A stretch of DNA of 64,000 nucleotides from Sulfuritalea sp. GTDB lineage: Bacteria; Pseudomonadota; Gammaproteobacteria; Burkholderiales; Rhodocyclaceae. Location of the stretch: NCBI RefSeq assembly GCF_017302275.1, contig NZ_JAFLDR010000019.1, positions 1-64,000 on the forward strand, read 5' to 3'. Position 1 is the first letter of the stretch. Every line of letters starts with the position of its first letter. The notes under the pieces were generated by a model. The model searched no databases, was not told where the DNA came from, and saw nothing but the letters and a program-made list of their open reading frames with translations. Made by a program: the position numbers and the translations under genes. Of the stretch, positions 5,473-62,145 are shown in pieces.

Positions 5473-6204
5473 ACCGGACAGCCGACAAGCAGACCCTCTA
5501 CGAGCTTCTCGGCCTCGGCGACAAAGCCTCCCCGGCGGACATGCAGCAGACCCATGGCGTCCTTCGACTGACGCTGGACGCACAGTCCGAGAACGAGCAA
5601 GAGTACGAGCGCATTGCGATCCTGACGGACGCCCGCGATCTGCTGCTCGACCGGCCGAACCCATGGCCGTCGCAGCGACCGTGGCGCCAGCGCCGACTTT
5701 CCCCGTTCCGCCCGCAGCGGAAAGCCGGGATGCCGAAACCCCTGCCGCAAACATCGCCACCCAGAATGTCGCCATCGAACGCGCCAAGCGGCTCCCCAAT
5801 GTGCACCCCATCCCCCCGATATGCACGAGGGGCCCCCGCGTGAGATCATTTCCACCACCGGAGCGTCGTCGAGAATCACCCTTGCCCCTGGACTCGATGC
5901 CAAACCGATCTGCCTTGGAAACGCCGGACGCATGGCGCGTGGAAGCCGGACATACAAGCCCGGATTTGCCAAAGGCCGCTTGATCCTTGCGCGGGGCACC
6001 ATGCTCGGTGCAGCCAATCCCCGCGGCCAGCACCGACGCATCTCGAACAACCACTGTAACCACGGCGCCTCGGGTGGAGCGCGCGACCGAAGCCTCGGCG
6101 CGTCACTCACCGTGGAATCCGCGTGCCGGGCGCTCGACCGGACCTTGATCGTGATCGACGCCTTCCCGACCGACTGCCTGACCAACCTCCAGCGCAACCG
6201 GTAG
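5469..6204 (+). pseudogene. Decayed open frame, J-domain-like at its start
   Basis: About 790 bases (5473-6263) hold no intact gene. One frame from about 5469, overlapping the symporter stop, reads TLYELLGLGDKASPADM and then ARDLLLDRPNP, resembling the first helices of a DnaJ-type J-domain but with QQTHG where the HPD motif would be and no ATG, GTG or TTG start near. Beyond about 5660 coding character passes to a second frame (MAVAATVAPAPTF, made by a copy of the 21-bp repeat) and then to a third, which ends at 6204. The pattern suits a gene broken by indels, one of them at the repeat; a non-genic spacer is also possible. Confidence 0.4.
5678..5698 (-). repeat. 21-bp dispersed repeat (family A), copy 1
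   Basis: Read on the minus strand it matches AGTCGGCGCTGGCG-CC-ACGGT. It lies where the reading frame of the decayed J-like gene changes. Confidence 0.8.
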
Positions 6205-6263
6205 CGTCGCATCGCCGCTGGCGAGGCTTGTCGCTCCTGCATGAAGGGGGCAGAATCCTGTTC

Positions 6264-7331
6264 GTGGCAATCGGCTCGCGCACCCACCTGACGCTCTACC
6301 TGACCGGCGGCTACCTGCTGCTGATCGTCTATGCCAGCCTGTATCCCCTTGCCGGCTGGCGCGACAGCGGCGGCAATCCGCTGGACTTCCTGTACGCCGC
6401 CTGGCCGCGGTATTACACCGACTTCGACCTGGCGACCAATGTCGCGGTATACCTGCCCTTCGGCCTCCTCTGTGCCGCCGCGCTGCGCCGCCGGTTGCCC
6501 GCCGTTCCGGCGGGGCTGTTGGCGACCCTGCTCGGCAGCGCCGTGAGCCTGTCGATGGAATTGCTGCAGAACTACCTGCCCGACCGCGTCCCCTCCAACC
6601 TGGACCTGGCCTGCAACGCCGCGGGCGCATTGCTCGGTGCCTGGCTGGGCGCCAGCAAGGCAAGCTACCTGCTGGACGAGGGACGCCTCGCCGACTGGCG
6701 GCGAAAAAACCTGATGCGCGGCTATGGCGTCGACCTGGGCGTGATGCTGGTGGCGGCCTGGTTGCTGACCCAGCTCTCGCCGGAATCGCTGCTGTTCGGC
6801 AGCGGCAACCTGCGCCTGATGCTCGACCTGCCCCCGGTACAGCCCTTTCTCGCGGAACGTTTCATCAGCGTCGAAACCACCATCGCCGCCTCCGGCCTGC
6901 TAGCGGCCGGACTGATCGTCACCCTGCTGTTGCGGCGCCATGCGCGACCGCTGACGATCGGCCTGCTGCTATTCGCCGTATTGGTCAAGGCGGCCACCCA
7001 CGGCGTTCTCATGGGCCAGGCGGCGGCACTGGCCTGGATCACGCCCGGCAACAGCACCGGCATGGCGATCGGGCTGCTGCTGTGGTGGAGCGCCACCTTC
7101 CTCGGCATCGAATTGCAGCGCGCGGTGGCCGCGCTGGCGCTGCTGTTTGCCACCGTCATGGTAAATGTCGCGCCGGACAATCCCTACCTGCAGAATACGC
7201 TGAATATCTGGAACCCCGGCCAGTTCCTCAACTTCAACGGCCTGACGCGCCTGATTTCCTCGCTCTGGCCCTTCCTGGCGCTGCCATGGCTGATGTCCTA
7301 CCGACCGAGAACAAATGACTCCGATTACTGA
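6264..7331 (+). CDS. VanZ-like family membrane protein
   Basis: 355-residue polytopic membrane protein. The first 130 residues form a VanZ-like domain: helix, short loop with DLATNVAVYLPFG, then SMELLQNYLPDRVPSNLDLA and CNAAGALLGAWLG, the signature of this family. Six or so further helices of unknown role follow. VanZ-like proteins are of unclear function outside glycopeptide resistance clusters; no resistance genes lie here. The GTG at 6264 (VAIGSRTHLTLYLTGGYLLL) was preferred because the frame upstream codes for an arginine/proline-rich stretch unlike a signal. Its 3' end overlaps the next gene by 17 bases. Confidence 0.75.
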   Translation: MAIGSRTHLTLYLTGGYLLLIVYASLYPLAGWRDSGGNPLDFLYAAWPRYYTDFDLATNVAVYLPFGLLCAAALRRRLPAVPAGLLATLLGSAVSLSMELLQNYLPDRVPSNLDLACNAAGALLGAWLGASKASYLLDEGRLADWRRKNLMRGYGVDLGVMLVAAWLLTQLSPESLLFGSGNLRLMLDLPPVQPFLAERFISVETTIAASGLLAAGLIVTLLLRRHARPLTIGLLLFAVLVKAATHGVLMGQAAALAWITPGNSTGMAIGLLLWWSATFLGIELQRAVAALALLFATVMVNVAPDNPYLQNTLNIWNPGQFLNFNGLTRLISSLWPFLALPWLMSYRPRTNDSDY

Positions 7332-7641
7332 CCTCACCACCCTGCGCGATGCGCTGCGGGCGTTCTGCGCCGCACGCGACTGGCATCGCTACCACACACC
7401 GAAGAACCTGGTCATGGCGCTCAGCGTCGAGGCGGCGGAACTGGTCGAACATTTCCAGTGGGCGACGCCCGAGGAAAGCCTGGCACTGGCGCCGGAAAAA
7501 CACGCCGAGGTCGCCGACGAGATCGCCGACGTGCTGATCTACCTGACCGAACTGGCCGACGTGCTGGGCATCGACCCGATCGCCGCGGCACGCCACAAGA
7601 TCGTCAAGAATGCGGCCAAGTATCCCGCGCCGGCCCGGTAG
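7315..7641 (+). CDS. MazG-like nucleotide pyrophosphohydrolase
   Basis: 108-residue all-alpha NTP pyrophosphatase of the MazG/dCTPase group, which hydrolyses (d)NTPs to monophosphate and pyrophosphate with Mg2+. The EXXE...EXXD metal motif is seen as VEAAELVEHFQW and EVADEIADVLIYL. The single-domain length fits the iMazG/RS21-C6 type rather than full-length MazG. The frame overlaps the VanZ-like gene end, so the two are probably co-transcribed. The exact substrate is not predictable; a house-cleaning role is inferred. Confidence 0.88.
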   Translation: MTPITDLTTLRDALRAFCAARDWHRYHTPKNLVMALSVEAAELVEHFQWATPEESLALAPEKHAEVADEIADVLIYLTELADVLGIDPIAAARHKIVKNAAKYPAPAR

Positions 7642-7676
7642 AATTCGCCCTCCGTCCCCCGCCCGGAACCCAAGCC

Positions 7677-7988: not shown

Positions 7989-7990
7989 AG

Positions 7991-8647: not shown

Positions 8648-8712
8648 CGTCGATCACACGGGCGAGGCGGCGCTCTCCAGTGACGAAACCTGCTGTTTCG
8701 CGCAACCCGGTG

Positions 8713-10649: not shown

Positions 10650-11561
<912 letters not shown>

Positions 11562-11599: not shown

Positions 11600-11620
11600 A
11601 GTCGGCGCCGGCGCGACGGC
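11600..11620 (+). repeat. 21-bp dispersed repeat (family A), copy 2
   Basis: Reads AGTCGGCGCCGGCG-CG-ACGGC, 39 bases after the nodI stop and just beyond the end of the convergent PAS-GGDEF gene. It marks the left edge of the accessory segment between nodI and nodJ. Confidence 0.85.
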
Positions 11621-11646: not shown

Positions 11647-12687
11647 TCAGGTACCCATGGCGACAACCGGGTCGCCCGTGGCGACCCGGTTGCGCCCTTG
11701 CTGCTTGGCTCGATACAAGGCTTGGTCCGCGATGCCGACCAGTTGCGTCGGCACGGCTTGCATGGAAACGGCCATCGAGGCGACCCCAATGCTGATCGTG
11801 ACATGGTCGGCAATCGCGGACCTCGCGTGCGGCATGGCGAGCTCCTCGACGGCGACGCGAATGCGCTCGGCGACGATGCAGGCCCCCGGCTGGTCCGTGG
11901 TGGGCAGGAGGATGGCGAACTCCTCGCCGCCATACCGGGCGACCTCGTCGCTGGATCGCTTGACGACACTCGACAGGGCGCCGGCGACGCGCCGCAGGCA
12001 TTCGTCGCCCCCCTGGTGCCCGTAGGTGTCGTTGTAAAGCTTGAAGAAGTCCACGTCGATCATGAGCAGTGACAACGCACGGGACTCCCGAGTGGCGCGG
12101 CGCCACTCGGCATTCAGGGTGCTGTCGAAGCTGCGGCGGTTGGCCACGCTGGTCAGTCCGTCGCGCAAGGCCAGGCGTTCGAGCTCGGCCTGGGCCTCCT
12201 TCTGCTCCGTCATGTCGCGCAGTGTTTCCACCACGGCGACCACCTTGCCATGGCTATCGTAGATGGGCCCCGCATCGACGGCCAGGTACAGTCGCGCGCC
12301 CATGCGCGGCATGACGCACCAGTTTTCCGCCTTGCGCCCGTGCGCGGCGGCGGCCTCCCCGCCGACGTGGTCATGCGTGACGTAGAGCGCGTCGATTTCC
12401 CCGGTGCGACCCAGCGCGACCAGGTCGGCCAGGCAGGGACGCGGCTCGTCGTAGAAACCGCGCCAATGTTCCCGGGTGCCGATCACCTCGGCGGCCTTGA
12501 TGCCGGTAAGGCGTTCGCAGGCACGGTTCCAGATGATGACCCGGCACCCGGCGTCGATGACAAAGGTCGGCACCACCAGTTGTTCCATGAGTCGAACGGA
12601 AAAATCCAGCTCGTCGACGCCTTGATGGCTCGCCGGAACGGTTTGCCTGCCGGTCATGCCTGCCTCCATTTGGTCGATATTATCCAT
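11647..12687 (-). CDS. PAS-domain diguanylate cyclase
   Basis: 346-residue soluble sensor enzyme that should make cyclic di-GMP from two GTP. A PAS domain (about 25-150) begins at VRLMEQLVVPTFVIDAG and includes VIIWNRACERLTGIKAAEVI; a GGDEF domain (about 180-340) has the active motif ARYGGEEFAILLP and an RxxD inhibitory site (RSSD) five residues before it, so it should be active and product-inhibited. The start at 12687 (MDNIDQMEAGM) was chosen because the longer frame upstream is only the antisense of a nodI fragment. It lies in the nodI-nodJ gap, opposite in direction. Confidence 0.9.
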   Translation of the reverse strand: MDNIDQMEAGMTGRQTVPASHQGVDELDFSVRLMEQLVVPTFVIDAGCRVIIWNRACERLTGIKAAEVIGTREHWRGFYDEPRPCLADLVALGRTGEIDALYVTHDHVGGEAAAAHGRKAENWCVMPRMGARLYLAVDAGPIYDSHGKVVAVVETLRDMTEQKEAQAELERLALRDGLTSVANRRSFDSTLNAEWRRATRESRALSLLMIDVDFFKLYNDTYGHQGGDECLRRVAGALSSVVKRSSDEVARYGGEEFAILLPTTDQPGACIVAERIRVAVEELAMPHARSAIADHVTISIGVASMAVSMQAVPTQLVGIADQALYRAKQQGRNRVATGDPVVAMGT

Positions 12688-12769
12688 GCAAGTGTAATGG
12701 CTAATCGACGGTATGGGGCTAACTTTCGGCATAGTGGCGAGGCGGCTGCCGGCGCGGTTGGCGCGACGA

Positions 12770-12898
12770 GTCGCCGTTTGCAGTTCCGTGCCACTGCTGG
12801 TCCACCTCGCCGCCCGAACCAGCCGGCGCACCCTGCACCGGCTGGCGAATCTGAAGGACATGTTCCGCAAGCTAACCGGACGCGAGTTGCGCGACTGA
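12770..12898 (+). pseudogene. Degraded 3' end of a second nodI-like gene
   Basis: About 129 bases whose translation ends [22 protein letters not shown], against [22 protein letters not shown] at the end of the intact nodI; the DNA is similar but clearly diverged. Nothing upstream codes for the ATPase core, so it is a remnant. It is followed, like the intact gene, by a copy of the 21-bp repeat within 25 bases of the stop. It lies in the 305-base gap between the PAS-GGDEF gene and the XRE gene, which otherwise holds nothing that I recognise. Confidence 0.8.
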
Positions 12899-12921
12899 TT
12901 CGGGACTATTTGACAAACAAT

Positions 12922-12942
12922 AGTCGGTGCTGGCGATACGGC
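12922..12942 (+). repeat. 21-bp dispersed repeat (family A), copy 3
   Basis: Reads AGTCGGTGCTGGCG-AT-ACGGC, 23 bases after the nodI remnant; one base of the core differs from consensus. Confidence 0.8.
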
Positions 12943-12992
12943 GATATTGCAATCAGGCGCCAGTCTGTAGAAGGCTCGCTGCACCGAACGTA

Positions 12993-13235
12993 TCACAGCT
13001 CTCTCAACCGTTCTTCAACTAACCCCATTAGCTGTGCTGCCGGAATCTTCAGTGCTTCAGCCAAGCCCAATATTGTTGCAAGCGTTGGGCCTTTTTCCGC
13101 GCGCTCAAGAGCGCTGATATGGCTGCGTTCGGTGCCCGCGCGTTCGGCAAGTTGATCCTGTGTGAGCGCCTGTTGCAAGCGCAATTCCTGCAACACCTCA
13201 CCAAAGATCTTCGTCGGTAGCTTCTTGTCCCGCAT
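12993..13235 (-). CDS. XRE-family HTH regulator
   Basis: 80-residue single-domain DNA-binding protein. The Cro/C1-type helix-turn-helix spans about residues 12-70: FGEVLQELRLQQALTQDQLA, ERAGTERSHISALERAEKGP, TLATILGLAEALKIPAAQL. Small stand-alone XRE proteins often control neighbouring accessory genes. It is divergent from a lipoprotein gene, and a perfect inverted repeat lies between them, suggesting it regulates that pair and itself (inferred). Confidence 0.85.
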   Translation of the reverse strand: MRDKKLPTKIFGEVLQELRLQQALTQDQLAERAGTERSHISALERAEKGPTLATILGLAEALKIPAAQLMGLVEERLREL

Positions 13236-14676: not shown

Positions 14677-14697
14677 GCCGTACCACCAGCGCCGACT
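14677..14697 (-). repeat. 21-bp dispersed repeat (family A), copy 4
   Basis: Minus-strand reading AGTCGGCGCTGGTG-GT-ACGGC, between the FlgO-like gene and the higB operator. Confidence 0.8.
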
Positions 14698-17477: not shown

Positions 17478-18077
17478 GTGTCGCTTGTGAAACACCTCGT
17501 CGCCTGCGCACTTTGTATCCCGCTGTTCGGCCCGGTGCAGGCGGCGGACGCCACGCCGCAACCAACGCCGGCGATGGCACAGGCGGCGTCCGAACTCAGG
17601 CCGCGGCATCAGGGCTATGCCTTCGAGCAACCGCAACTGCTGCTGCGCCAGCGCCTGTTCGGCCTGGCGCACGGATTGTCGATGCTGGCGGCGGCCTGCC
17701 TCGACCTGCCGCGGCATTCGACGCCGATCCAGGATGCCTACGCGAGCTGGCATGGCAAACAGACCGGCACCATCGAGGTGCTGGTGCTCGACCTCGCCCG
17801 CTACTATTTCGGCGAGCGTGCCGACGAGGCCAGCTGGTTCGACCTGGCGCGCGCACTGGGCCTCAACGACAGCATCGAGCCTGCCTTGCGCGACGTCAGC
17901 CTGGACGATGCCTGCGCCAGCCTGCCGCAGGCGATAGTCGGGCCGCGCTACGATTTCGCGCGACTGCTGGCGGACGCCGCCGCGCCCGACAGCCCGGCGA
18001 CGGTGGCGAACGCCGTGCCGCCGGCGACCGAAGGAAGTCCTCGTGGGACGCCGACTTCCCCCAAGCCCGCCGAATGA
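17478..18077 (+). CDS. Secreted protein of unknown function
   Basis: About 199 residues. The GTG at 17478 (or 17487) gives a signal peptide, [19 protein letters not shown], cut before ADATPQP. The mature part is mainly helical ([60 protein letters not shown]) with two cysteines ([19 protein letters not shown]) that could pair. The end is a low-complexity Ala/Pro/Thr tail. I do not recognise a family. It overlaps trmB by 4 bases, so it is translated with it. The frame extends upstream to 17397, but that part is the GC-run repeat and was left out. Confidence 0.65.
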
Positions 18078-22134: not shown

Positions 22135-22192
22135 GCCGCTGCGTCCTTGTCCGTGGTTTGCCGGGCGGTATGGTGACACAGAACGCGCGCCG

Positions 22193-23407
22193 TCAGGCGC
22201 GATCCTCGGCGAGGAAGCCGGCCAGCAGCCGATTGAGGAAACGCCGGCCCTGCATGGTCGGCCGCAGCCAGCCGTCGGCCGCTTCCAGCAGGCCCTCGCG
22301 CCGTGCCGCCAGCGCCGACTTTTCGATGGCGGCCAGCGGCAGGCCGGTGCGCTCGGTGAACAGCGCCAGCGGAAAGCCACCATTCAGGCGCAAGGCATTC
22401 ATCATGAATTCGCCGGGCAGGTCGGCGCGCTCGATGTCCTGCCGGGTGGCGACGAAATCGCCGCGCGCGGCGCCCTCCAGGTAGGCGCGCGGGCTGCGGT
22501 GGCGCGTCTCGCGCCAGATCGAGGCGTGGGTCGACAGCTTGCCGTGGGCGCCGGCGCCGATGCCGAGGTAGTCGCCGAAGCGCCAGTAGTTGAGGTTGTG
22601 CGCGCACGGCGCGCCAGGCCGGGCGAAGGCCGAGGTTTCGTAGTGCGCGAAGCCGGCGGCACCGAGCCGGGCTTCCACCATCTCCTGCATGTCGGCCGCC
22701 AGGTCGTCGTCGGGCAGCGCCGGCGGCGCGCGGTGGAACGCCGTGTTCGGCTCCAGTGTCAGGTGATAGGCCGAGATGTGGCCGACCCCGCTGCCGCTCG
22801 CCGTGGCGATGTCGGCTTCGGCCTGTGCCAGCGTCTGCCCCGGCAGCGCGTACATCAGGTCGAGATTGACGCGCTCGAAATTGGCCAGCGCCAGTTCGAT
22901 CGCGCGCCGCGCTTCGGCGCCGTTATGGATGCGGCCCAGCGCGGCGAGCTTGGCGTCGTCGAAACTCTGCACGCCGATCGACAACCGGGTCACGCCGGCG
23001 GCGCGGAAGGCGGCGAACTTGGCCGCTTCGGCGGTGCCGGGATTGGCCTCGAGCGTGATCTCGGCGCCGGGATGCAGTGGCAGTCGCATTCGGATCGCCG
23101 CCAGCAACGCTTCGGCGGTTTCGCCACGCATCAGGCTGGGCGTGCCGCCGCCGATGAAGATGCTGGACACCGGACGGTTCCAGACCTGCGGCAGGGCGGC
23201 TTCGAGATCGGCGACCAGGGCGGCGAGATAGGCGGCCTCGTCGACTTCACCACGGGCCTCATGCGAATTGAAATCGCAGTAGGGACACTTCCTGACGCAC
23301 CACGGCCAGTGCACGTACAAGGACAAGGGTGGCGGCGCGACCAGTCCGGAGGAGTCTGCAATAGTCGGCGCCGGCGGGACGGCGACCACCGGAATGATCG
23401 GAATCAC
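22193..23407 (-). CDS. hemW: HemW, radical SAM heme chaperone (coproporphyrinogen oxidase-like)
   Basis: 404 residues. HemW uses a [4Fe-4S] cluster and SAM and is thought to insert heme into respiratory enzymes; it was long annotated as a coproporphyrinogen III oxidase. The cluster motif CVRKCPYCDFNSH (CX3CX2C) is intact, followed by SIFIGGGTPSLM, SIGVQSFDDAKL and the C-terminal HemN domain. Its GTG start overlaps the rdgB stop. The first 25 residues (VIPIIPVVAVPPAPTIADSS) precede the usual start and are partly made by a copy of the 21-bp repeat. Confidence 0.92.
   Translation of the reverse strand: MIPIIPVVAVPPAPTIADSSGLVAPPPLSLYVHWPWCVRKCPYCDFNSHEARGEVDEAAYLAALVADLEAALPQVWNRPVSSIFIGGGTPSLMRGETAEALLAAIRMRLPLHPGAEITLEANPGTAEAAKFAAFRAAGVTRLSIGVQSFDDAKLAALGRIHNGAEARRAIELALANFERVNLDLMYALPGQTLAQAEADIATASGSGVGHISAYHLTLEPNTAFHRAPPALPDDDLAADMQEMVEARLGAAGFAHYETSAFARPGAPCAHNLNYWRFGDYLGIGAGAHGKLSTHASIWRETRHRSPRAYLEGAARGDFVATRQDIERADLPGEFMMNALRLNGGFPLALFTERTGLPLAAIEKSALAARREGLLEAADGWLRPTMQGRRFLNRLLAGFLAEDRA
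23363..23383 (+). repeat. 21-bp dispersed repeat (family A), copy 5
   Basis: AGTCGGCGCCGGCG-GG-ACGGC, inside the first codons of hemW, read antisense to the gene as PPAPTI. Confidence 0.85.
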
Positions 23408-24112: not shown

Positions 24113-24844
24113 TCACCGTAGCGCCAGCGCCGACTCTTGCGCCTTGACGATGTCGCCGATGCCGGCCGCGGCGAGTGCCAGCAGGGTGTCCAGCTCGACG
24201 CGAGAGAACGGCGCGCCCTCGGCCGTGCCCTGCACTTCGATGATGCCGCCGCCGGCGGTCATCACCACGTTCATGTCGGTGTCGCAGGCCGAATCCTCGG
24301 CGTAATCGAGATCGAGCACCGGGATGCCCTCGACGATGCCGACCGAGACCGCGGCAACCAGTTCGCGCATCACGTGCTGCGCCAGCTTGCCGCCGGCGAC
24401 CAGGCTGCCGATGGCATCGTGCAGCGCCACGCAGGCGCCGGTGATGGACGCGCAGCGCGTGCCGCCGTCGGCCTGCAGCACGTCGCAGTCGAGCGTGATC
24501 TGGCGTTCGCCGAGCGCCTTGAGGTCGGTCACGGCGCGCAAGGAGCGGCCGATCAGGCGCTGGATTTCCTGCGTGCGGCCGGACTGCTTGCCCTTCGCGG
24601 CCTCGCGCGCGGTGCGGGTGTTGGTGGCGCGCGGCAGCATGCCGTATTCGGCGGTGACCCAGCCGGCACCCTTGCCACGCAGGAAGCCGGGCACCGACTC
24701 CTCGACGCTGGCGGTACACAACACCTTGGTGTTGCCGAACTCGACCAGCACGCTGCCTTCGGCGTGGCGGGTGTAGCCGCGGGTGATGCGCAGCTCGCGC
24801 AGTTGCGCGGCGTCACGGGAAATGCGTTGCGAGGGACGATTCAT
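24113..24844 (-). CDS. rph: Ribonuclease PH
   Basis: 243-residue phosphorolytic 3'-5' exoribonuclease that trims tRNA 3' ends. Motifs: [96 protein letters not shown], and [23 protein letters not shown] at 24844 has GGAG seven bases upstream. The last seven codons (SALALR plus stop) are supplied by a copy of the 21-bp repeat, replacing the usual AQKAALA-type end. Confidence 0.96.
24115..24135 (-). repeat. 21-bp dispersed repeat (family A), copy 6
   Basis: Minus-strand AGTCGGCGCTGGCG-CT-ACGGT, forming the final codons and part of the stop codon of rph. Confidence 0.85.
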
Positions 24845-24884
24845 CAAGGAACTCCGTTGGCGTGAAATACGCTCTCCAACAATC

Positions 24885-27995: not shown

Positions 27996-28016
27996 AGTCG
28001 GCGCCAGCGACACGAC
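27996..28016 (+). repeat. 21-bp dispersed repeat (family A), copy 7
   Basis: AGTCGGCGCCAGCG-AC-ACGAC, 27 bases after yicC and just before the cysteine-cluster gene. Confidence 0.75.
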
Positions 28017-28998: not shown

Positions 28999-29397
28999 TC
29001 AGTCCGCAGCCGGCGGACCGCGCGGGGCGTGCGCGGTCAGCGGAGGATGGGGACGCCGCGCCAGCGGGCGCCGGTTCGGCGCGGCGTGGAAAGTCGGCGC
29101 TGGCGACACGGCAAGGCCATTGCCGGCGGCCAGCAGCGGAGCGCCGGCCGCGCAAAGCGTGCAGCAATCGTGAAGCTCGCCGGCCGGGGCGCTGCCGCCG
29201 TCCTGCCCAAGATCCACCTTGAGCACGCCGTGGCTGGTACATAGTTCGGTGACGATGCCGCCCTTGCCGCCGTCCGTCACCGCCGCACGCGCCATGCCGC
29301 TGCCAGCCAGCAAGTGCAACGCCACCGCCAGCAGGCCGAGCGCCGACCGCATCACGGGATGGCGTCGAATCGGGAACGGGCGGGCGAAGTTGCACAT
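28999..29397 (-). CDS. DUF2946-family secreted protein
   Basis: 132 residues. A signal-like segment MRSALGLLAVALHLLAGSGM-ARA follows a basic N-terminus; the CTSHG and LHDCCTLCAAGAPLLAAGNG cysteine motifs match DUF2946, small proteins often found with copper chaperones and of unknown function. The C-terminal third (GLAVSPAPTFHAAPNRRPLA and a Pro/Arg-rich end) is partly encoded by a 21-bp repeat and probably an added tail. Confidence 0.65.
   Translation of the reverse strand: MCNFARPFPIRRHPVMRSALGLLAVALHLLAGSGMARAAVTDGGKGGIVTELCTSHGVLKVDLGQDGGSAPAGELHDCCTLCAAGAPLLAAGNGLAVSPAPTFHAAPNRRPLARRPHPPLTAHAPRGPPAAD
29092..29112 (+). repeat. 21-bp dispersed repeat (family A), copy 8
   Basis: AGTCGGCGCTGGCG-AC-ACGGC, inside the 3' third of the DUF2946 gene, antisense to it (AVSPAPTF). 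Confidence 0.85.
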
Positions 29398-39874: not shown

Positions 39875-42520
39875 TCACTTCAGCGCGTTGCCGACCACCT
39901 CCGCCACGTCGCGTGCCAGTCCGGCGCAGGCCCGGATGCGCTCCAGCGCTACGCACGCGTGGCCCTGGCGCACGGCGTCGAACTGGCGCCAGCGGTCAAA
40001 GCTACGGGCGATGCGCGAGGCCACCTGCGGGTTCATCGCCTGCAATTCGATGATGACGTCGGCGGCGAACTGGTAGCCGCTGCCGTCCAGGGCATGGAAG
40101 TGGCGTGGATTGGCGCCGCAGAAGGCGCGCACCAGAGCGTACACCTTGTTCGGGTTCGTCAGGTCGAAGGCCGGATGCCGCATCAGCGCGCGGACCCGCG
40201 CGCCGGTGCCGGGCAGCCGCGAGGTGGATTGCACCGAGAGCCACTTGTCGACCACCAGGGCCTCGCCCTGCCATTTGGAATAAAACGCGGCGAGCGCCGT
40301 TTCGCGTTCCGGCAGATCCTGGTTGGCCAGTATGCCAAGCGCGGCGATGACGTCGGTCATGTTGCCACCCTCTTGCAGCTGGACCAGCAGGCGCGGCAGC
40401 ACGGTGGCGGCATCGGCATCGGCGAGGTAGGCGAGGCAGGCATTGCGCAGCGCGCGGCGGCCGACCTGGGCGCCGTCGGGCGCGTAGGGCTCGTTCGGCG
40501 CCAGCGCCCGCCAGGTGGATTCGAACTCGACACGTAGTCCCGTGGCGAGGTGGCGGCGCAGGTTGAGCCGCGCGAGGTGGATGGCCTCGGGATCGATGAC
40601 GCCGCCGCCGGCGACGACTTCTTCGGCCAGCACTTGTTCTGCCGGCAGGGCCAGCGCTTCGGCGGCGAAGGCGGGGTCGTGTTGGCCGTCGGCGAGGACG
40701 CGGGCGTAAGCCGCGACCAGGCTGCGCGGTATCCAGGTGTCGCCATGGCCGCCGGCACCGATGCCGGCGAGCAGCACGCGGGTCGCCAGGCGCTGGCCGG
40801 CTTCCCAGCGGTTGAAGGGGTCGGAGTCGTGCGCCATGAGGTGGGCCAGTTCGGCATCCGCCTGGTCGAAGTCGAGATGCACCGGCGCCGAGAAGCCGCG
40901 CAGGATGGAGGCCACCGGCGGCCGTGCGATGCCGTCGAAGACGAAGCTCTGGGTGGATTGCGTGAGCGACAGCACGCGCGTGGGGAAGGCATCGCTGCCA
41001 TCGGGCAGCACCAGGCCGACCGCGACCGGGATGTGCAGCGGACCACCATCGGCGACGATGCCGGCTTCGGCGAGCCGGGCTTCATAGGCCGTCGGCGCCA
41101 GCGTCTGGGTCAGCGTCAGCGTGTAGCGCTTGGCGGCGGCGTCATAGGCGCCCTCCGCCTTGAGGCGCGGCGTGCCGGCGCGGGCGTACCAGCGGCGGAA
41201 CTGCGTCAGGTCCGTTACCGATGCGTCCTGCATCGCGGCGACGAAATCCTCGCAGGTCACGGCCTGGCCGTCGTGGCGCGCGAAGTAGAGGTCCATGCCC
41301 TTGCGGAAATTCTGACGGCCGATGATCGTTTCGATCATGCGGATCACCTGGGCGCCCTTCTCATACACCGTCGCCGTGTAGAAGTTGTTGATCTCGGCGT
41401 AGGAGGCGGGCCGGATCGGGTGCGCCATCGGCCCGGCATCTTCGGGGAACTGGGCGACCCGCAGCGTCCTCACCTCCTGGATGCGGGTCACCGCGCGCGA
41501 GTGCAGGTCTTCGCCGAACTCCTGGTCGCGGTAAACGGTGAGGCCTTCCTTCAGCGAGAGCTGGAACCAGTCGCGACAGGTGACGCGGTTGCCGGTCCAG
41601 TTGTGGAAGTACTCGTGGGCGACGACGCGCTCGATGCCCTGGTAGTCGGTGTCGGTGGCGGTGTCGGGGCGGGCCAGCACGTACTTGGTGTTGAAGATGT
41701 TGAGGCCCTTGTTCTCCATCGCACCCATGTTGAAGTCGCCGACGGCGACGATCATGTAGTGGTCGAGGTCCATCTCCAGGCCAAAGCGTTCTTCGTCCCA
41801 TTTCATCGACTTCTTCAGGGCCGCCATGGCGTGGTCGCACTGGTCGAGCTTGCCGGGTTCGACGTAGACGGCGAGACGCAGCTTGCGCCCCGATGCCGTG
41901 GTGAAGCTGTCCTCCAGCACGTCCAGCTTCGCCGCGACCAGGGCGAACAGGTAGGCCGGTTTGGCGAACGGATCTTCCCAGCGCGCCCAGTGGCGACCGT
42001 TTTCGGCGTCGCCAGTGGCAACCGGGTTACCGTTGGACAGCAGCTGCGGGAAGCGCGCCTTGTCGGCCTCGATGGTGCAGCTGTAGCGCGCCATGACATC
42101 GGGCCGGTCCGGGTAGAAAGTGATGCGGCGAAAGCCCTGCGCCTCGCATTGGGTGAAGTAGCCGTCCTTGGACTTGTAGAGGCCGGAGAGCTGGGTGTTG
42201 TGGTCGGGGTCGACGCGGACCAGGGTTTCCAGCGTGAAGGCATCCGGTAGCGGGCCGTGCAGTGTGAGGATTTCGTCGCCTATCGTGTAGCGCGACGGAG
42301 CCATCGCCGTACCGTCAGCGCCGACTTCCAATAACGTCAGCTCTTCGCCATCGAGCACCATGTCGGCCTGCGGGTTGGCCGGGTTGCGCCGGCAGGCCAG
42401 CCGGGCGCGCACCTCGGCATGGCCGTCCTGGATGACGACGTGGAGCTCGACCGTGTCGATCAGCCAGGCCGGCGGGGCGTAGTCCTTGAGGTAGATGGCG
42501 TGTGGAGTTTCGGTGCGCAT
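39875..42520 (-). CDS. pepN: Aminopeptidase N
   Basis: 881-residue M1-family zinc aminopeptidase of the long bacterial PepN type. Exopeptidase motif GAMENKGLN, zinc-binding HEYFHNWTGNRVTCRD with HExxH(18)E, and the catalytic tyrosine region are present; the C-terminal helical domain is complete to LARDVAEVVGNALK. Cytoplasmic; acts on small peptides. A family A repeat codes for part of the N-terminal beta domain (LLEVGADGTAMAPS). Start at 42520, MRTETPHAIYLKDYAPPAWL, is standard. Confidence 0.96.
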   Translation of the reverse strand: MRTETPHAIYLKDYAPPAWLIDTVELHVVIQDGHAEVRARLACRRNPANPQADMVLDGEELTLLEVGADGTAMAPSRYTIGDEILTLHGPLPDAFTLETLVRVDPDHNTQLSGLYKSKDGYFTQCEAQGFRRITFYPDRPDVMARYSCTIEADKARFPQLLSNGNPVATGDAENGRHWARWEDPFAKPAYLFALVAAKLDVLEDSFTTASGRKLRLAVYVEPGKLDQCDHAMAALKKSMKWDEERFGLEMDLDHYMIVAVGDFNMGAMENKGLNIFNTKYVLARPDTATDTDYQGIERVVAHEYFHNWTGNRVTCRDWFQLSLKEGLTVYRDQEFGEDLHSRAVTRIQEVRTLRVAQFPEDAGPMAHPIRPASYAEINNFYTATVYEKGAQVIRMIETIIGRQNFRKGMDLYFARHDGQAVTCEDFVAAMQDASVTDLTQFRRWYARAGTPRLKAEGAYDAAAKRYTLTLTQTLAPTAYEARLAEAGIVADGGPLHIPVAVGLVLPDGSDAFPTRVLSLTQSTQSFVFDGIARPPVASILRGFSAPVHLDFDQADAELAHLMAHDSDPFNRWEAGQRLATRVLLAGIGAGGHGDTWIPRSLVAAYARVLADGQHDPAFAAEALALPAEQVLAEEVVAGGGVIDPEAIHLARLNLRRHLATGLRVEFESTWRALAPNEPYAPDGAQVGRRALRNACLAYLADADAATVLPRLLVQLQEGGNMTDVIAALGILANQDLPERETALAAFYSKWQGEALVVDKWLSVQSTSRLPGTGARVRALMRHPAFDLTNPNKVYALVRAFCGANPRHFHALDGSGYQFAADVIIELQAMNPQVASRIARSFDRWRQFDAVRQGHACVALERIRACAGLARDVAEVVGNALK
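42306..42326 (-). repeat. 21-bp dispersed repeat (family A), copy 9
   Basis: Minus-strand AGTCGGCGCTGACG-GT-ACGGC, inside pepN in sense direction (VGADGTA). Confidence 0.75.
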
Positions 42521-43923: not shown

Positions 43924-43944
43924 CGTCGGCGCCGGCGACACGGC
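43924..43944 (+). repeat. 21-bp dispersed repeat (family A), copy 10
   Basis: CGTCGGCGCCGGCG-AC-ACGGC, preceded by TTGGGACGCAGAG (43911). Lies between the EamA gene and the transporter pseudogene. Confidence 0.8.
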
Positions 43945-46118: not shown

Positions 46119-46153
46119 CGCGTCCGCGAAAGTTTTCTTGGGACGCACAGCGC

Positions 46154-46171
46154 TGGCGCCGGCGGGACGGC
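46154..46171 (+). repeat. 21-bp dispersed repeat (family A), copy 11, partial
   Basis: TGGCGCCGGCG-GG-ACGGC, with a TTGGGACGCA box at 46138 as in copy 10; the first bases of the core differ. Lies just past the porin remnant. Confidence 0.65.
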
Positions 46172-46700: not shown

Positions 46701-47432
46701 TTACTTGCAGTTGTTGTGCAACTTCCACATTTCGCCGTGACCCATGGCCACTGCCCAGTCCGGCGGCGTGCATTTGCCGGCACCGCCCGTGGCGGCGGCT
46801 TCCGGCGCAGCGGCTTGCGCCTGGGTCGGCTGGAACCATTGCCGGCTGGTGAAGCCGATCACGGCGACGAAGATCGCGACGATCGCCGTAGCGCCGGCGC
46901 CGACTTTCTGGCTGGGGTGTGGCACGAAGACTTCGCAGGCGCCACCCGGGCAATGCCTTGCCTGTTGGCGGCTGAAGGCGTTGTAGATCTTGCAGGCGAG
47001 GCAGATGCCGAAGGCGCTCTCGAAGAACATCAGGGTCAGGCAAGTGGCGCATACGATCAGGTTGATCGGACCGACCACCTTGTTGAGCACGATCAGGTAG
47101 AACATCACCACGGCCAGCGTCCAGCCCACCGCCCAGGCAAAGCGCTTCTGCGGCGCGCCCGACCATTCCGGCACCTGATTCTTCACCGCGAGGCGGCCGA
47201 GGATCATGCTCGGCGAGTACTTAGGATTGATGAAGATGCGGATCGTGAAATCGATCAGGAAGCCGATCACGAAAATCTGCGTCAGGCGGAAATTTCCCAT
47301 CAGCCAGGAGTTCATGAACGAAACCAGGGCGAAGGCGAAGAGGATGCCGGCGGCCGCCCGCACCTCACGTTCATTCAATACCGGAACGCCGTAGTCGGGC
47401 ACTCTCTCGCCGAAGCCGAGAATTTTCTGCAT
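46701..47432 (-). CDS. DUF4395-like membrane protein
   Basis: 243 residues with about five membrane helices. The DUF4395 core is seen as VPVLNEREVRAAAGILFAFA, then FINPKYSPSMILGRLAV and the cysteine helix FESAFGICLACKIYNAFSRQ. A C-terminal extension follows: KVGAGATAIVAIFVAVIGFT, encoded partly by a 21-bp repeat, then a periplasmic end with two cysteines (GKCTPPDWAVAMGHGEMWKL, HNNCK). ATG at 47432 is 6 bases from an AAAGGA site. DUF4395 proteins are often near thioredoxin-type genes and of unknown role. Confidence 0.75.
   Translation of the reverse strand: MQKILGFGERVPDYGVPVLNEREVRAAAGILFAFALVSFMNSWLMGNFRLTQIFVIGFLIDFTIRIFINPKYSPSMILGRLAVKNQVPEWSGAPQKRFAWAVGWTLAVVMFYLIVLNKVVGPINLIVCATCLTLMFFESAFGICLACKIYNAFSRQQARHCPGGACEVFVPHPSQKVGAGATAIVAIFVAVIGFTSRQWFQPTQAQAAAPEAAATGGAGKCTPPDWAVAMGHGEMWKLHNNCK
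46885..46905 (-). repeat. 21-bp dispersed repeat (family A), copy 12
   Basis: Minus-strand AGTCGGCGCCGGCG-CT-ACGGC, in the DUF4395 gene in sense direction (VGAGATA), at a loop/helix border. Confidence 0.85.
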
Positions 47433-47530
47433 CTGCATTCCTTTCAAAAGTTCCCAATGGGACGCACCGCACTGGGGACACGGTGCCGGACCACCGCCGG
47501 CATGCTAGCCTGAAAAGGCGCTGCAGCCTA

Positions 47531-48085: not shown

Positions 48086-48103
48086 GATGGGCTCCTGGTA
48101 AAA

Positions 48104-48124
48104 GTCGGCGCTGGCGGCACGGCG
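48104..48124 (+). repeat. 21-bp dispersed repeat (family A), copy 13
   Basis: AGTCGGCGCTGGCG-GC-ACGGC, between the OsmC-like gene start and the thioredoxin-like gene end. Confidence 0.85.
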
Positions 48125-50871: not shown

Positions 50872-51393
50872 TCAGTCTCCGGTATGGATGCGCCGGGCGG
50901 CGGCGAGCGCCTCGTCGCGGCTCATGGTTTCCAGCGGCAGGGCGAGGAAGGCTTCGATGCGCTTCCTCAATGACTGGTAAGCCTCCTCGAAGGCCTCGCG
51001 CCGCGCTTCCAGCGGTTCGACATGGGCGGGGTCGGGAATGCCCCAGTGCGCCGTCGCCGGATGGCCGGGCCAGACCGGGCAGGTTTCCTGCGCCGCATTG
51101 CCGCAGACGGTGAAGATGAAATCGAAAGTTATGGGAACCGGTATCCCCTTGTGGGACGGCGCTGGCGGTACGGCGTCAGCGTTGAATTCGTCCCAGGATT
51201 TGCTGCGCGCACCGGCGCAGGGCACGCCATGCCTTGCCAGCGTTTCCAGCGCGACCGGGTTGACCGCGCCGCCGGGCTTGCTGCCGGCCGAATGCGCCTC
51301 GATGCTGCCCCGGCCGAGGTGATTGAACAGCATCTCGCCGAGGATGGAGCGCGCGGAATTGCCGGTGCACAGCACGAGTACCTTGAACGTCAT
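50872..51393 (-). CDS. arsC: Thioredoxin-type arsenate reductase (LMW-phosphatase fold)
   Basis: 173 residues. The CX5R active-site loop VLVLCTGNSARSILGEML, SKSWDEF and the resolving cysteine region FIFTVCGNAAQETCPVWPG are intact, so arsenate-to-arsenite reduction is expected. Between SKSWDEF and FDFIFTVC lies an insert NADAVPPAPSHKGIPVPIT, longer than in relatives and made by a 21-bp repeat copy. ATG at 51393. Second gene of the ars operon. Confidence 0.92.
   Translation of the reverse strand: MTFKVLVLCTGNSARSILGEMLFNHLGRGSIEAHSAGSKPGGAVNPVALETLARHGVPCAGARSKSWDEFNADAVPPAPSHKGIPVPITFDFIFTVCGNAAQETCPVWPGHPATAHWGIPDPAHVEPLEARREAFEEAYQSLRKRIEAFLALPLETMSRDEALAAARRIHTGD
51154..51174 (+). repeat. 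21-bp dispersed repeat (family A), copy 14
   Basis: GGACGGCGCTGGCG-GT-ACGGC, inside arsC and antisense to it (AVPPAP); the first three bases deviate and it is preceded by TTGTGGGA. Confidence 0.75.
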
Positions 51394-57721: not shown

Positions 57722-57780
57722 GATCCTTGGCCGGGAAGCGCACGTCCCTCACGACTCCCCATGCCCTCCGCTTTGCCGGG

Positions 57781-60330
57781 TCAGGCCTTGACCACCTTGG
57801 CCGCGCACTTCTTGAAGTCCGTTTCTTTCGAAATCGGACACGTGGCGTCCAGGGTAAGTTTGTTGACCAGGCGGTGCTCGTCGAAGAAAGGAATGAAGAT
57901 CAGGCCCTCCGGCGGCTTGTTGCGGCCCTTGGTGTCGACCCGCAGGCTGATCTCGCCGCGCCGTGTCGAGACCTTGACCACGTCGTTGCGCTTGAGGCCG
58001 CGCTTCTCGGCGTCCTTCGGGTGCATCCAGACCACCGCGTCCGGGAAGGACTTGTAGAGCTCGGGCGCGCGCCGCGTCATCGAACCCGTATGCCAGTGCT
58101 CCAGCACGCGGCCGGTGCACAGCCACAGGTCATATTCCTTGTCCGGCATTTCGGCCGCCGGCTGGTAGGGCAGGGCGAAAATCTTGGCCTTGCCGTCGGG
58201 GTAGCCGTAGAACCTCACGCCCTCGCCCTTCTTCACATACGGGTCGTAGCCTTCGCGGAAACGCCACAGCGTTTCCTTGCCATCCACCACTGGCCAGCGC
58301 ATGCCGCGCACCTTGTGGTAGGTGTCGAAGGGCGCCAGGTCGTGGGCGTGCCCGCGGCCGAAGGCGGCATATTCCTCGAACAGGCCTTTCTGCACGTAGT
58401 AGCCGAAAGCCTCGGACTCGTCGTTGGTGTATCCGGCAAACGCGTGGGCGTTGACCTTCGCCGTTTCGTCCTTGGGGAACTTGTTGACCTGGCCGTTGGC
58501 ATACAGCACCTCGTACAGGGTCTTGCCCTTGTATTCCGGCGCCTTGGCCAGCACGTCCGCCGGCCAGACGTCTTCCATCTTGAATCGCTTGGAGAACTCC
58601 ATGTACTGCCAGAGGTCGGACTTGCAGTCACCCGGGGCCTTGACCTGCTGGCGCCACATCTGGCCGCGACGCTCGGCGTTGCCGAACATGCCTTCCTTTT
58701 CCATCCACATCGCGCAAGGCAGGATCAGGTCGGCCGACATCGCCGACACCGTCGGATAGACGTCGGAAACCACGACGAAGGCCTTCGGGTTGCGCCAGCC
58801 CGGATAGATCTCGCCATTGACGTTGGGGCCGGCCTGCATGTTGTTGGTGGTCGAGGTCCAGTAAAAGCCTATCTTGCCGTCCTTCAGCATGCGGCTTTGC
58901 GCCACCGCGTGATAGCCCATCTGCGCGGAAAGCGCGCCCGCCGGCAGTTTCCAGAGTTTCTCCGTCATCTCCCTATGCTTCGGATTGAAGATCACCATGT
59001 CGGCCGGCAGGCGATGGGCGAAGGTGCCGACCTCGCGCGCCGTGCCGCAAGCCGAAGGCTGGCCGGTCAGCGAGAAGGGGCTGTTGCCCGGCTCGGAGAT
59101 CTTGCCCACCAGCAGGTGCACGTTGTAGATCATGTTGTTGACCCAGGTGCCGCGCGTATGCTGGTTGAAACCCATGGTCCAGTAGGAGGTGACCTTCACC
59201 TTCGGATCGGCATAGGCCTTGGCCAGGGCTTCGAGTTTCTCCTTCGGCACGCCGGAAATCTCGTGCGCCTTGTCGAGCGTGTACTCGGAAACGAACTTGG
59301 CGAAGTCGTCGAACGTGATCGGCGTGTGCTTGTTCGGGTCGCCCTTGGGCTTGCCGTCGGCGCCGGGGTAGCCGTTGTTGTTGGCCACCTGTTCCAGCGG
59401 ATGGTTGGGCCGCAGGCCGTAGCCGATGTCGGTGACGCCCTGGAAAAAGCCGACATTCTTCTTGACGAATTCCTGATTGACCGCCTTGTTCTGGATGATG
59501 TAATTGCAGATGTAGTTGAGGATCGCCAGGTCCGACTGCGGCTTGAAGATCAGCTCGTTGTCGGCCAGTTCGCAGGAACGGTGCGAGAAGGTGGACAGGA
59601 CATGGATCTTGACGTGGTTGGCGGTGAGGCGGCGGTTGGTGATGCGCGACCAGAGGATCGGGTGCATCTCGGCCATGTTGGCGCCCCACAGGGCGAACAC
59701 GTCGGCATGCTCGGCATCGTCATAGCAACCCATCGGCTCGTCGATGCCGAAGGTGCGCATGAAACCGGCGACGGCGGAGGCCATGCAATGGCGCGCGTTC
59801 GGGTCGATGCTGTTGCTGCGGAAGCCGGCCTTCATCAGCTTGACGGCGGCATAGCCTTCCCACACCGTCCATTGGCCGGAGCCGAACATGGCAACGCCGT
59901 TCGCACCCTGGGTCGGCTCCTTCAGCGTCGCCTTGACCTTGTCGGCCATGATGTCGAAGGCGGCATCCCATGTGATCGGCGCGAATTCGCCGTTCTTGTC
60001 GAACTTGCCGTCCTTCATGCGCAGCAGCGGCTTGGTCAGGCGATCCTTGCCATACATGATCTTCGACAGGAAGTAGCCCTTGACGCAATTCAAGCCCTTG
60101 TTCACCGGCGCATCCGGGTCGCCCTGGGTGGCCACCACGCGCCCGTCCTTGACCCCGACCAGAACGCCGCAACCGGTGCCGCAGTAGCGGCAGACGCCCT
60201 TGTCCCAGCGCACGCCTTCTTCGCTCTGCGGCGTTGCGGCCAGCGCCACGCCGGGAATGCTCATGCCGGCGCTGGCGGCTGCGGCGGCTACGGCATTGGA
60301 CTTGATGAATTCACGTCGCGTCAATTTCAT
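57781..60330 (-). CDS. napA: NapA, catalytic subunit of periplasmic nitrate reductase
   Basis: 849 residues, normal length. Tat signal [20 protein letters not shown], [4Fe-4S] site [20 protein letters not shown] with the fourth cysteine in [20 protein letters not shown], and molybdopterin-binding segments with the Mo-ligand cysteine in [20 protein letters not shown]. Two bis-MGD domains run through to [20 protein letters not shown]. Reduces nitrate to nitrite in the periplasm. Second gene after napD. Confidence 0.98.
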
Positions 60331-60331
60331 T

Positions 60332-60625
60332 TCAAATCTCCTTTATTTGCGGCTCGGCCCTGCGGCCAGCCTCCACTGAAACTTCCAGGTCTGGTTCGGA
60401 TTCGATTTGGTGGTACACCATGGCGGTCGACATCACGCCCTGCAGCCGGCCGATTTCCTCGTAAATAGCGACATTGCTGCCATCGTCGGCGGATTCGATG
60501 GTGACGATCAGCTTGCCCTCGGGCGACACGGCATGCACCTCGACGCCCTCCAACCCGGCCAATCCAGCTTGAACGACCGGCAACTGGCCTGGTCCGGCGT
60601 GGACGATGGCACTTGATATGTTCAT
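60332..60625 (-). CDS. napD: NapD, chaperone for NapA
   Basis: 97 residues, [20 protein letters not shown] then [20 protein letters not shown], the ferredoxin-like fold that binds the NapA Tat signal. Start chosen at 60625, since the frame upstream has no family homology. Directly precedes napA, and its upstream region carries an FNR-type promoter. Confidence 0.93.
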
Positions 60626-60741
60626 TTCCCGGCTCCGATGACGGCAGCTCTTTGCTGCCGGACAGATTCTCGCGTCGATAACCCTTGGAAAATTAGGGTT
60701 TGTGCACATGCAACATCGTAGGCCTGCAACCAGCTGCTGCC

Positions 60742-60755
60742 TTGATGCGGATCAA
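60742..60755 (-). promoter_or_regulatory. FNR box and class II promoter for napDAGHB
   Basis: TTGAT-GCGG-ATCAA, a perfect FNR consensus. On the napD strand a -10-like TACGAT (60720-60715) follows after 21 bases, the spacing of an FNR-activated class II promoter (box centred near -41.5), so transcription would start near 60708. Confidence 0.85.
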
Positions 60756-60849
60756 CTGAAAATACGCCCGGAAAAGAATAGCCATAGAACTTTTACTCTA
60801 TGGCGATTCAACGAGCTGATCGGAATGGTGCGCCGTTGGCGGCGCGGCG

Positions 60850-62145
60850 TCAAGGTTCTGTCTGGTCTACCACGATGCGCAAACCGCTGGCTCCCGGCTT
60901 CACGGTGGTGCTCTTGCCGGTAAGGTCGCCCTTGCCCGGCGCGGCCTGGCCCGACTTCGAGACACGAACCTCGATACGCACCTGCTGCGCCGACGAAAGA
61001 TTGGATCCCGGCATCACGGCATGACTGTCGTCAAGCACGAAATCCAGCGGCAGGTCGGCCGCGCGCGCGCGCAGCGCGGCAAGCGGCATGCGCGGACCAT
61101 CGACCGCGCGGGCGAAGATGAAGACGACGTCGTCGGGACCAGCCTTGCCTTTGAGGGCGGCGGCAAGTTCGACACGTCCGCCGACCGACTTGCCCGAGGT
61201 TTTGGCCGCGGTTTTGTCGGCGCCCTTCTCCGTTCCCGGCTTCGCCACGCCGCGATGTGCATCATCCCGGGGAATGGCAGTGTCGGGCAGGGCATCGCCC
61301 CCTGCCGAGGCCTTCTTCCCGGCTTCGCTGCGCTCGCGCGCCATCGCGATGCTCGATTCGACCATCTGGGCATCTTCGCTGCCGGGTTCGAGGCGCGGCA
61401 GGAGCCGTCCCCAATATTCCGTCGCGGCGGCATAACGGCCGGCGGCGAAGGCCTCGCCGCCGCCGAGGAACAGGGCCAGCATGTTGTCGGGTTCCAGGCG
61501 CAGCGCCTTCTGCACCAGTTCACGCGAACGGGCATCGAAGCCATTGCTCTTCTGCACCTGCAGTTCCGCCACTTCGGCGAGCAGTTCGGCGCTCTTCTCC
61601 AGGTCCGGTCCGACGCGGGCATAGGCGCGTTCGGCGTCCTCCAGGCGACCGAGGGACTTGTAGGCGCGGGCGAGCATGACCCAGCCTTCAGGATTTTCGG
61701 GGTTCTGCTCCAGTTTCCGGGCCAGATTGGCCGTGAGCTGTTCCATGTCCGCCGCGACGCGCTGCGCCTGTGCCGCCTGCGGCAGCACCGCGGACGGAGT
61801 GCCGATCACGGCATACAGGGCGACCGCGAGCAGCGGCAGCACGATGGCGATCGCGATGCCGCTGCGGCGGCTGACGGCATCGACGGCGGCCACTTCGGCC
61901 GCTGCGGTGTCGTCGAGCAGTTGCCGCTGCAGTTCCTCGCGCGCCTCGGCCAGGCCGGCATCGGAGAGCGTGCCATTGTTGTGGTCGCGCTCGAGTTCTG
62001 CAAGGCGGTCGCGATGGATGGCGGCGTTCAGCGCCGGCAAAAAGTCGGCGCTGACGATACGGCGACCGGAACGCCACCACGGACGCAGCAGCAGCGCCAG
62101 GGCGACGACGACCAGCGCCGCCGCTGCAAGATAAAAATGGGTCAT
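60850..62145 (-). CDS. ccmI: Cytochrome c biogenesis protein CcmI
   Basis: 431 residues. N-terminal membrane helices (FYLAAAALVVVALALLLRPW; GIAIAIVLPLLAVALYAVIG) with a cytoplasmic loop (ALNAAIHRDRLAELERDHNN), then a periplasmic TPR part (MLARAYKSLGRLEDAERAYA) and a C-terminal beta domain. CcmI presents apocytochrome to CcmFH. A 21-bp repeat codes for RRIVSADF in the loop. Overlaps ccmH by 4 bases (ATGA). Confidence 0.9.
   Translation of the reverse strand: MTHFYLAAAALVVVALALLLRPWWRSGRRIVSADFLPALNAAIHRDRLAELERDHNNGTLSDAGLAEAREELQRQLLDDTAAAEVAAVDAVSRRSGIAIAIVLPLLAVALYAVIGTPSAVLPQAAQAQRVAADMEQLTANLARKLEQNPENPEGWVMLARAYKSLGRLEDAERAYARVGPDLEKSAELLAEVAELQVQKSNGFDARSRELVQKALRLEPDNMLALFLGGGEAFAAGRYAAATEYWGRLLPRLEPGSEDAQMVESSIAMARERSEAGKKASAGGDALPDTAIPRDDAHRGVAKPGTEKGADKTAAKTSGKSVGGRVELAAALKGKAGPDDVVFIFARAVDGPRMPLAALRARAADLPLDFVLDDSHAVMPGSNLSSAQQVRIEVRVSKSGQAAPGKGDLTGKSTTVKPGASGLRIVVDQTEP
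62043..62063 (+). repeat. 21-bp dispersed repeat (family A), copy 15
   Basis: AGTCGGCGCTGACG-AT-ACGGC, inside ccmI and antisense to it (RRIVSADF). Confidence 0.8.

Follow-up and report, generated by a model that had tools for sequence, protein, structure and literature searches.

A two-part repeat in Sulfuritalea and related genera as a candidate DNA uptake signal

The window is the 64,000-nucleotide stretch at the start of Sulfuritalea sp. contig NZ_JAFLDR010000019.1, analyzed at its full length. Sulfuritalea is placed by the NCBI taxonomy in the Sterolibacteriaceae, Betaproteobacteria. The window contains genes for a sodium:solute symporter, ABC transporter components, RNase PH, YicC, and PepN, and a short repeat lies both within and between its genes. 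Judged by its sequence features, the repeat is more likely than not a DNA uptake signal, a word that would mark own-kind DNA for preferential import.

The repeat in the window and its source genome

Allowing up to three mismatches, the motif occurs 17 times in the window, 11 times on the plus and 6 on the minus strand (Table 1). The expected number is 0.32, and the largest count in 100 shuffles is 2. The source genome, G000 (4.41 Mb, draft; G, g, and L numbers are our labels for genomes, genera, and sequence records), has 777 copies at up to two mismatches (392 plus, 385 minus), or about 1 per 5.7 kb, and the reversed-pattern control gives 8. At up to one mismatch there are 648 copies, 324 on each strand, and the control gives 0. 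In a pool of 835 kb, 78 copies are exact, 58 have one mismatch, and 22 have two; the corresponding numbers from one Markov control are 0, 0, and 1.

The fuller consensus is RARAGTCGGCGCYGGCGRYACGGCGAY, built from 90 copies in the window and 400 kb of genus member G002. It is asymmetric and roughly 25-27 bases long, with conservation from position -2 to about +24 and background level on either side. The motif is not palindromic. Two canonical versions of the single motif fold at -6 kcal/mol, and 19 and 59 of 200 shuffles fold equally well or better. An Rfam scan of the window returned no family above threshold, and a tRNA search of the window returned none.

A preliminary description of this DNA listed 15 sites, ten plus and five minus. 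All 15 are present, but two copies were missed. The site given as 48104 starts at 48103, and the copy called partial at 46154 spans 46151-46171 with three mismatches. The flanking AA or AT and GA do occur, though as parts of the conserved motif itself rather than outside it. The absence of a strong hairpin was correctly seen, the fold being close to that of shuffles. Eight copies had been counted in coding frames; by the rough gene caller, called genes hold 6 of the 17, in four frames. A genome-wide count no greater than composition predicts had been named as grounds for dismissing the repeat, and with 777 copies against 8 for the reversed pattern, far above composition, this does not apply.

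Table 1. Motif copies in the window. Genes are those of an in-house rough codon-scoring caller, and "intergenic" is by that caller.
Feature	Position	Strand	Remarks
Copy, 1 mismatch	4569..4589	+	Within sodium:solute symporter gene (3976-5472 +, Pfam SSF); reads KVGGGATA; absent from preliminary description
Copy, 1 mismatch	5678..5698	-	Intergenic
Copy, exact	11600..11620	+	Between converging genes, 38 bases past stop of ABC transporter ATPase gene
Copy, 1 mismatch	12922..12942	+	Antisense within called gene 11647-12996 (-); reads AVSPAPT
Copy, 1 mismatch	14677..14697	-	Intergenic; retained in G014
Interrupted copy	18012..18056	-	AGTCGGCG, then 24 extra bases (TCCCACGAGGACTTCCTTCGGTCG), then CCGGCGGCACGGC
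Copy, exact	22300..22320	-	Within called ABC-transporter gene 21325-22383 (-); retained in G014; absent from preliminary description
Copy, exact	23363..23383	+	Intergenic; retained in G014, where variable bases differ
Copy, 1 mismatch	24115..24135	-	Supplies last codons and part of stop of RNase PH gene (24113-24847 -); retained in G014
Copy, 2 mismatches	27996..28016	+	26 bases past yicC stop; G014 shows consensus here despite differing flanks
Copy, exact	29092..29112	+	Intergenic; retained in G014
Copy, 1 mismatch	42306..42326	-	Codons 65-72 of pepN (39875-42520 -); reads EVGADGTA; substitution origin
Copy, 1 mismatch	43924..43944	+	Between converging called genes
Copy, 3 mismatches	46151..46171	+	Altered 5' part
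Copy, exact	46885..46905	-	Within DUF4395 gene (46701-47447 -); reads KVGAGATA; retained in G014
Copy, exact	48103..48123	+	Intergenic; G014 counterpart has extra sequence within motif
Copy, 2 mismatches	51154..51174	+	GGTATCCCC-type stretch in place of 5' part
Copy, 1 mismatch	62043..62063	+	Intergenic

Distribution and dialects

All 31 genomes of the home genus that were searched carry the motif, with 73-784 copies each, and 30 genomes from other genera have 0 to 7. In a survey of the family (199 genomes, 68 genera), at least 63 copies are found in 23 genomes from eight genera (g1, g32, g43, g47, g62, g69, g70, and g88), and the rest have 0-25. Elsewhere in the class, 14 of 273 genomes contain one or two copies at up to one mismatch. 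Record L019 of Sulfuritalea sp. SJ561 encodes a PepN 83% identical to that of the window and has three motif copies within 7.8 kb. In an RpoB tree of 25 genomes, the canonical-motif-rich genomes included form one clade with a printed support of 0.96, and g34 is its sister. This is a one-gene tree that does not place the motif-rich g32 and g62. Thirty genomes were tried; G061, G091, G153, and G032, without an rpoB match, and G109, with fragments only, were left out. Motif loss has probably occurred in some clade members, since the motif-poor G082 (g53), G166 (g90), and G136 (g47) sit within the clade.

The lineages share the frame AAAAGTC-N12-ACGGCG, in which the ends are constant and the middle differs. 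Searched with no mismatch, this end pattern occurs 584 times in g32, 425 in g62, 64-280 in g70, 139-199 in g88, 141 in G000, and 20-105 in five further genus members; reversed controls give 0-3 per genome. Counts in g43 are uneven, with 174 in G177 and 255 in G236, but 1 in G072, 6 in G132, and 4 in G209. These last three have 363-568 inner-motif copies despite few AAAAGTC ends.

Three genomes of the sister genus g34 have 287, 199, and 254 end-pattern matches with an AGTC-type middle. In a 100-kb sample of G063, from this genus, the canonical form is absent even with one mismatch allowed. Its most over-represented 10-mer is AAAAGTCAGT (10 seen, 0.025 expected), and its copies read about AAAAGTCAGTCNCNGCNGNACGGCG, with length and ends as in the canonical motif. 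A GAC dialect rests on one genome, G098, the sole g69 member sampled. GAC comes next in 19 of its 19 end-pattern matches, and GACGCTGG in 10 of the 19. In 73 kb of G098, the GACGCTGG-type form occurs 4 times exactly and 8 times at up to one mismatch, and the canonical form twice at up to one mismatch. The over-represented word TGGGGGTCC of G082 was rejected as a dialect; it sits in one recurring coding-like context. Other families of the order, represented by 338 genomes, reach at most 5 exact end-pattern matches per genome (G530, G576). The repeat is restricted to a clade and its dialects follow phylogeny, as expected of uptake signals.

Several genomes stand apart from this pattern. Within the motif-bearing genera, G017 has 73 copies and G136, a 79%-complete 1.7-Mb assembly, has 2. 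These two, G205, and the g43 genomes G072, G132, and G209 may have lost the system or may use a further sub-dialect. G109 (24 copies) and G158 (25) lie outside the motif-rich genera and carry a few canonical copies, some of them clustered. In G530, three of the 5 end-pattern matches lie within 5 kb. Such sporadic copies in G109, G158, and G530 are what an import of DNA from motif-bearing relatives might leave behind. Genus stretches have 1.90 extra copies per 10 kb in the neighborhood of an exact copy, and matching stretches in a viral collection have 0.53 (a rate from 80 loci of at least 120 matching stretches). L132, from the viral contig collection, has five copies spaced 316-385 bases apart at 885-2238, in a repeated array whose units, by eye, resemble integron attC cassettes.

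Placing, constraint, and origin of copies

Of 158 copies in the 835-kb pool at up to two mismatches, 75 lie in called genes, 2 lie across gene ends, and 81 are intergenic. The intergenic share compares with 22.6% non-coding sequence by the same caller (p = 7e-15). Intervals between converging genes hold 22 of the 76 placed intergenic copies and make up 17% of intergenic length. Copies in genes are distributed over the six reading frames as 26/25/10/10/2/2 (p = 1e-8). Read off the consensus, the two favored frames encode V-G-A-G-x-T-A and A-V-x-P-A-P-T. Intergenic enrichment and frame bias together amount to the permissive placing expected of uptake signals.

Strand and chromosomal position were sampled in G002 using 20 stretches, 400 of 3803 kb, with the replication arms set roughly by GC skew. 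There are 33 leading and 40 lagging copies (p = 0.48). Copies occur in 19 of the 20 stretches and are evenly spread (variance/mean 1.25 per 20 kb). Like uptake signals, the copies thus occupy both strands, chromosome-wide and unpolarized. Perfect inverted pairs, in which even the variable bases match, occur twice (L234 and L238), with loops of 7 and 8 bases; one of them folds at -39.9 kcal/mol. Uptake signals frequently form inverted pairs that act as terminators; here these two tight pairs stand beside a total of close pairs that equals chance.

Third codon positions are identical in 84.6% of cases within the motif (291/344), 65.9% in the flanks (3691/5598), and 67.4% at the variable NN positions (31/46). 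The higher conservation of third positions in the motif than in the flanks indicates that the DNA word, and not the protein alone, is conserved. The p-values of this test and of the copy comparisons below are too small because of repeated counting and the weight of pepN.

The best-tested copy, in pepN, arose by substitution within existing codons. Here EVGADGTA in the window corresponds to AVGLDGTA, SVALDG, and similar peptides in relatives; the comparison, from which row fen_999 was left out because of a wrong reading frame, is gap-free and the differences are point substitutions. Among 88 matches from genomes outside the motif-bearing genera, 85 align ungapped. A spanning outside match exists for 7 of the 75 in-gene copies, and 4 of these are the pepN site. 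The three other coding sites comprise two ungapped alignments and one gapped alignment at 36% identity. Origin by substitution, as described for uptake signals, is therefore seen at few independent sites, and intergenic copies are little covered. The genus members G002, G004, G017, G023, and G024 have no PepN match, though near genus members have one; the assemblies of G004, G023, and G024 are incomplete and those of G002 and G017 are not.

Between genus members, 214 copy comparisons were made. The motif is kept in 127, differs by substitution in 54, by gaps in 26, and by both in 7. These comparisons are not independent, since a site or a pair of genomes may enter twice, once in each direction, and pepN dominates; outside pepN there are 12 substitution and 14 gap cases. 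The motif-less side is gapped in 3 of the 26, and most of the others carry extra sequence. None of the 214 comparisons shows a clean 21-27-base empty site. The alignment of orthologs proposed in the preliminary description does not support insertion at the sites that it covers, and at pepN it speaks for substitution.

Some copies are interrupted by extra bases, which enter at three different points. Such copies are seen at L272 4339, L270/L242 pepN, L281 6375, L269 8271, window 51123-51174, and L235 17191. In five genomes the pepN motif site holds an in-frame extra stretch of this sort, and a sixth genome has a shorter stretch there. Within the genus sequence searched, exact matches to TGCGTACCTGG lie at 7 separate places, and by eye each of them adjoins at least one motif end; looser forms of this word occur elsewhere too. 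The three extra stretches tested fold no better than shuffles. In G015 (L255 1161-1327), a tandem array of seven units, each about 24 bases long and itself a close copy of the motif, lies upstream of pepN and directly after an apparent stop codon.

The uptake reading and its rivals

In the accounts drawn on here, genome-wide uptake sequences are described from the Neisseriaceae and Pasteurellaceae (PMC3630211, PMC12616744, PMC1626085), so that the origin and divergence of such codes rests on two cases. The dialects of the DNA uptake sequence (DUS) of Neisseriaceae track phylogeny around a shared core (PMC3630211), and the word is continuous, up to about 13 bases (PMC12616744). The repeat likewise is a short asymmetric word with very many copies, in permissive gene parts and intergenic sequence and sometimes in inverted pairs, and it too has a conserved frame and a lineage-specific part. 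It differs in being about 25-27 bases long and two-part, conserved at two ends and variable in the middle, with a different sequence, a lower density, and a receptor that is a candidate only. The uptake signal sequence (USS) of Haemophilus and other Pasteurellaceae arose by substitution, not insertion, in coding sequence (PMC1626085). Its long consensus with a core, and its substitution origin, seen at pepN by the same kind of test on few sites, are shared features. The extended Hin-USS starts AAAGTGCGG (PMC12616744), faintly like AAAGTCGG of the motif, which is probably a coincidence. The repeat is GC-rich and has no AT-rich tracts after the core. ComE1 is present in all eight Pasteurellaceae tabulated (PMC1626085), whereas a counterpart over the cut-off is absent in 23 genomes of the home genus.

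By likeness, the repeat would be classed with DUS and USS as a word that may work like them. The uptake reading fits best because of the clade restriction, the dialects, the in-place origin at the tested site, the frame bias, and the equal strands. A putative receptor at the cell surface, probably one of the minor pilins of the type IV system, would bind both conserved ends. Motif-bearing DNA would then be imported through ComEC and recombined, and copies would spread in the population as by-products of biased import, that is, by molecular drive. Changes in the receptor may create the dialects. Of the 199 family genomes, 196 have a ComEC match (191 over the cut-off) and 185 match the ComP-type (ComP_DUS) pilin model. 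A ComEC channel and type IV pilins are therefore available, though not in carriers specifically, and neither accounts for the distribution of the motif because both are near-universal in the family. There is about an even chance that the repeat belongs to a third lineage of self-DNA recognition, independent of those in the Neisseriaceae and Pasteurellaceae. Its code would be of about 25 bases in two parts, AAAAGTC-12 bases-ACGGCG, split into three or more dialects across related genera, with a candidate receptor and possibly no standard ComEA.

Several observations weigh against an uptake signal. The main one is that ComEA exceeds the TIGR00426 cut-off in 0 of 23 genomes of the home genus, to which this search was limited; the nearest hit in G000, below threshold, is to Tex. 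A divergent ComEA may fall short of that cut-off. A DUS is defined functionally, as a word that raises uptake, and not by a ComEA gene. ComEC and the ComP-type pilin also occur in motif-less relatives. In the open-licence literature, papers listed by sequence were unrelated by title, and none listed by topic had a title dealing with a repeat of this kind in these bacteria. No report of transformation in the group was among the papers listed, one of which concerns wastewater communities and their transformation. The motif is longer and, at about 1 per 5.7 kb, sparser than known DUS and USS. One of the four independent coding sites is gapped, and pepN alone supplies 42 of the 54 substitution cases and 12 of the 26 gapped ones. 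G082, G166, and G136 nest inside the motif-rich clade while poor in motif, and a fourth g34 genome, G205, has 0 dialect copies. Pairs of copies less than 100 bases apart number 4, about the 3.8 that chance predicts. The extra stretches in interrupted copies, about 24-36 bases and of three kinds, are not predicted by DUS theory.

A sequence-specific protein that organizes the chromosome could also leave many of the same marks. In this chief rival, which is rather unlikely, the repeat is the binding site of a chromosome-organizing or nucleoid protein, sites are kept by selection, and dialects reflect protein-site co-evolution. The strong consensus with constraint on DNA, the lineage dialects, the even spread in G002, and the lack of ComEA over the cut-off are all consistent with it. 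However, copies show no replication-strand bias in the G002 sample and hence are no KOPS-like guide (KOPS, FtsK-orienting polar sequences), and their presence in nearly every G002 stretch means that they are not region-confined. About half lie in genes, in several frames. Under this rival, selection must also maintain some 700 separate sites; uptake drive requires no selection at the individual site, though this is an argument only. KOPS and Chi are short, polar words over-represented chromosome-wide; the repeat is similarly over-represented but much longer, and has no strand bias in the sample. A segregation guide of the KOPS type was rejected on the leading and lagging counts of that sample (400 of 3803 kb). 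The preliminary description had offered an uptake or segregation signal, of which uptake fits best and segregation finds no support in the unbiased strands and even spread.

That description had also likened the repeat to an inserting mobile element. A short self-copying element that inserts in the manner of Rickettsia palindromic elements is unlikely, even with many dispersed, near-identical copies, the seven-unit array in G015, and an intergenic origin that is little covered, with 12 substitution against 14 gap cases outside pepN. The pepN copy is ungapped against nearly all outside matches, two of the three other coding sites are ungapped and the third is gapped at low identity, the motif-less side is rarely gapped and never by a clean 21-27 bases, and the motif is not palindromic. 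Rickettsia palindromic elements lie inside genes without breaking frames, as the motif does, but the motif is shorter, non-palindromic, and formed by substitution at the tested site; a palindromic insert with filled and empty sites was not found. Repetitive extragenic palindromic (REP) elements and bacterial interspersed mosaic elements (BIME) also have many copies per genome, along with RAYT transposases. A Y1-type transposase domain occurs in 6 of 8 genomes searched, but G017 and G098 carry the motif with no Y1 transposase detected. REP/BIME identity was rejected, as single copies lack a strong hairpin and about half are in genes. It is very unlikely that the repeat is a regulatory site or transcription terminator of a large regulon. 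The intergenic enrichment and the copies soon after stops between converging genes agree with such a role; the 75 of 158 copies inside genes, the weak fold of a single copy, and close pairs that match chance do not. Least likely of all is an insertion target or long-lived footprint of the small inserted repeats. Interrupted copies in several genomes and the motif ends beside TGCGTACCTGG point that way, but interrupted forms are few against the 158 pooled copies, pepN shows an intact motif arising without them, and the extra stretches fold like shuffles.

If the repeat is an uptake signal, it would be a third case, beside two families, for tests of molecular drive versus selection. It would also offer an independent test of receptor-word co-evolution, in bacteria that are probably free-living, and would point to a role for natural transformation among them. 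The motif also supplies a tag by which DNA passed between these genera can be recognized.

Away from the repeat, the window also encodes the periplasmic nitrate reductase NapA and a CcmF/NrfE-family heme lyase, at 57781-60330 and 62603-64000 (-), respectively.

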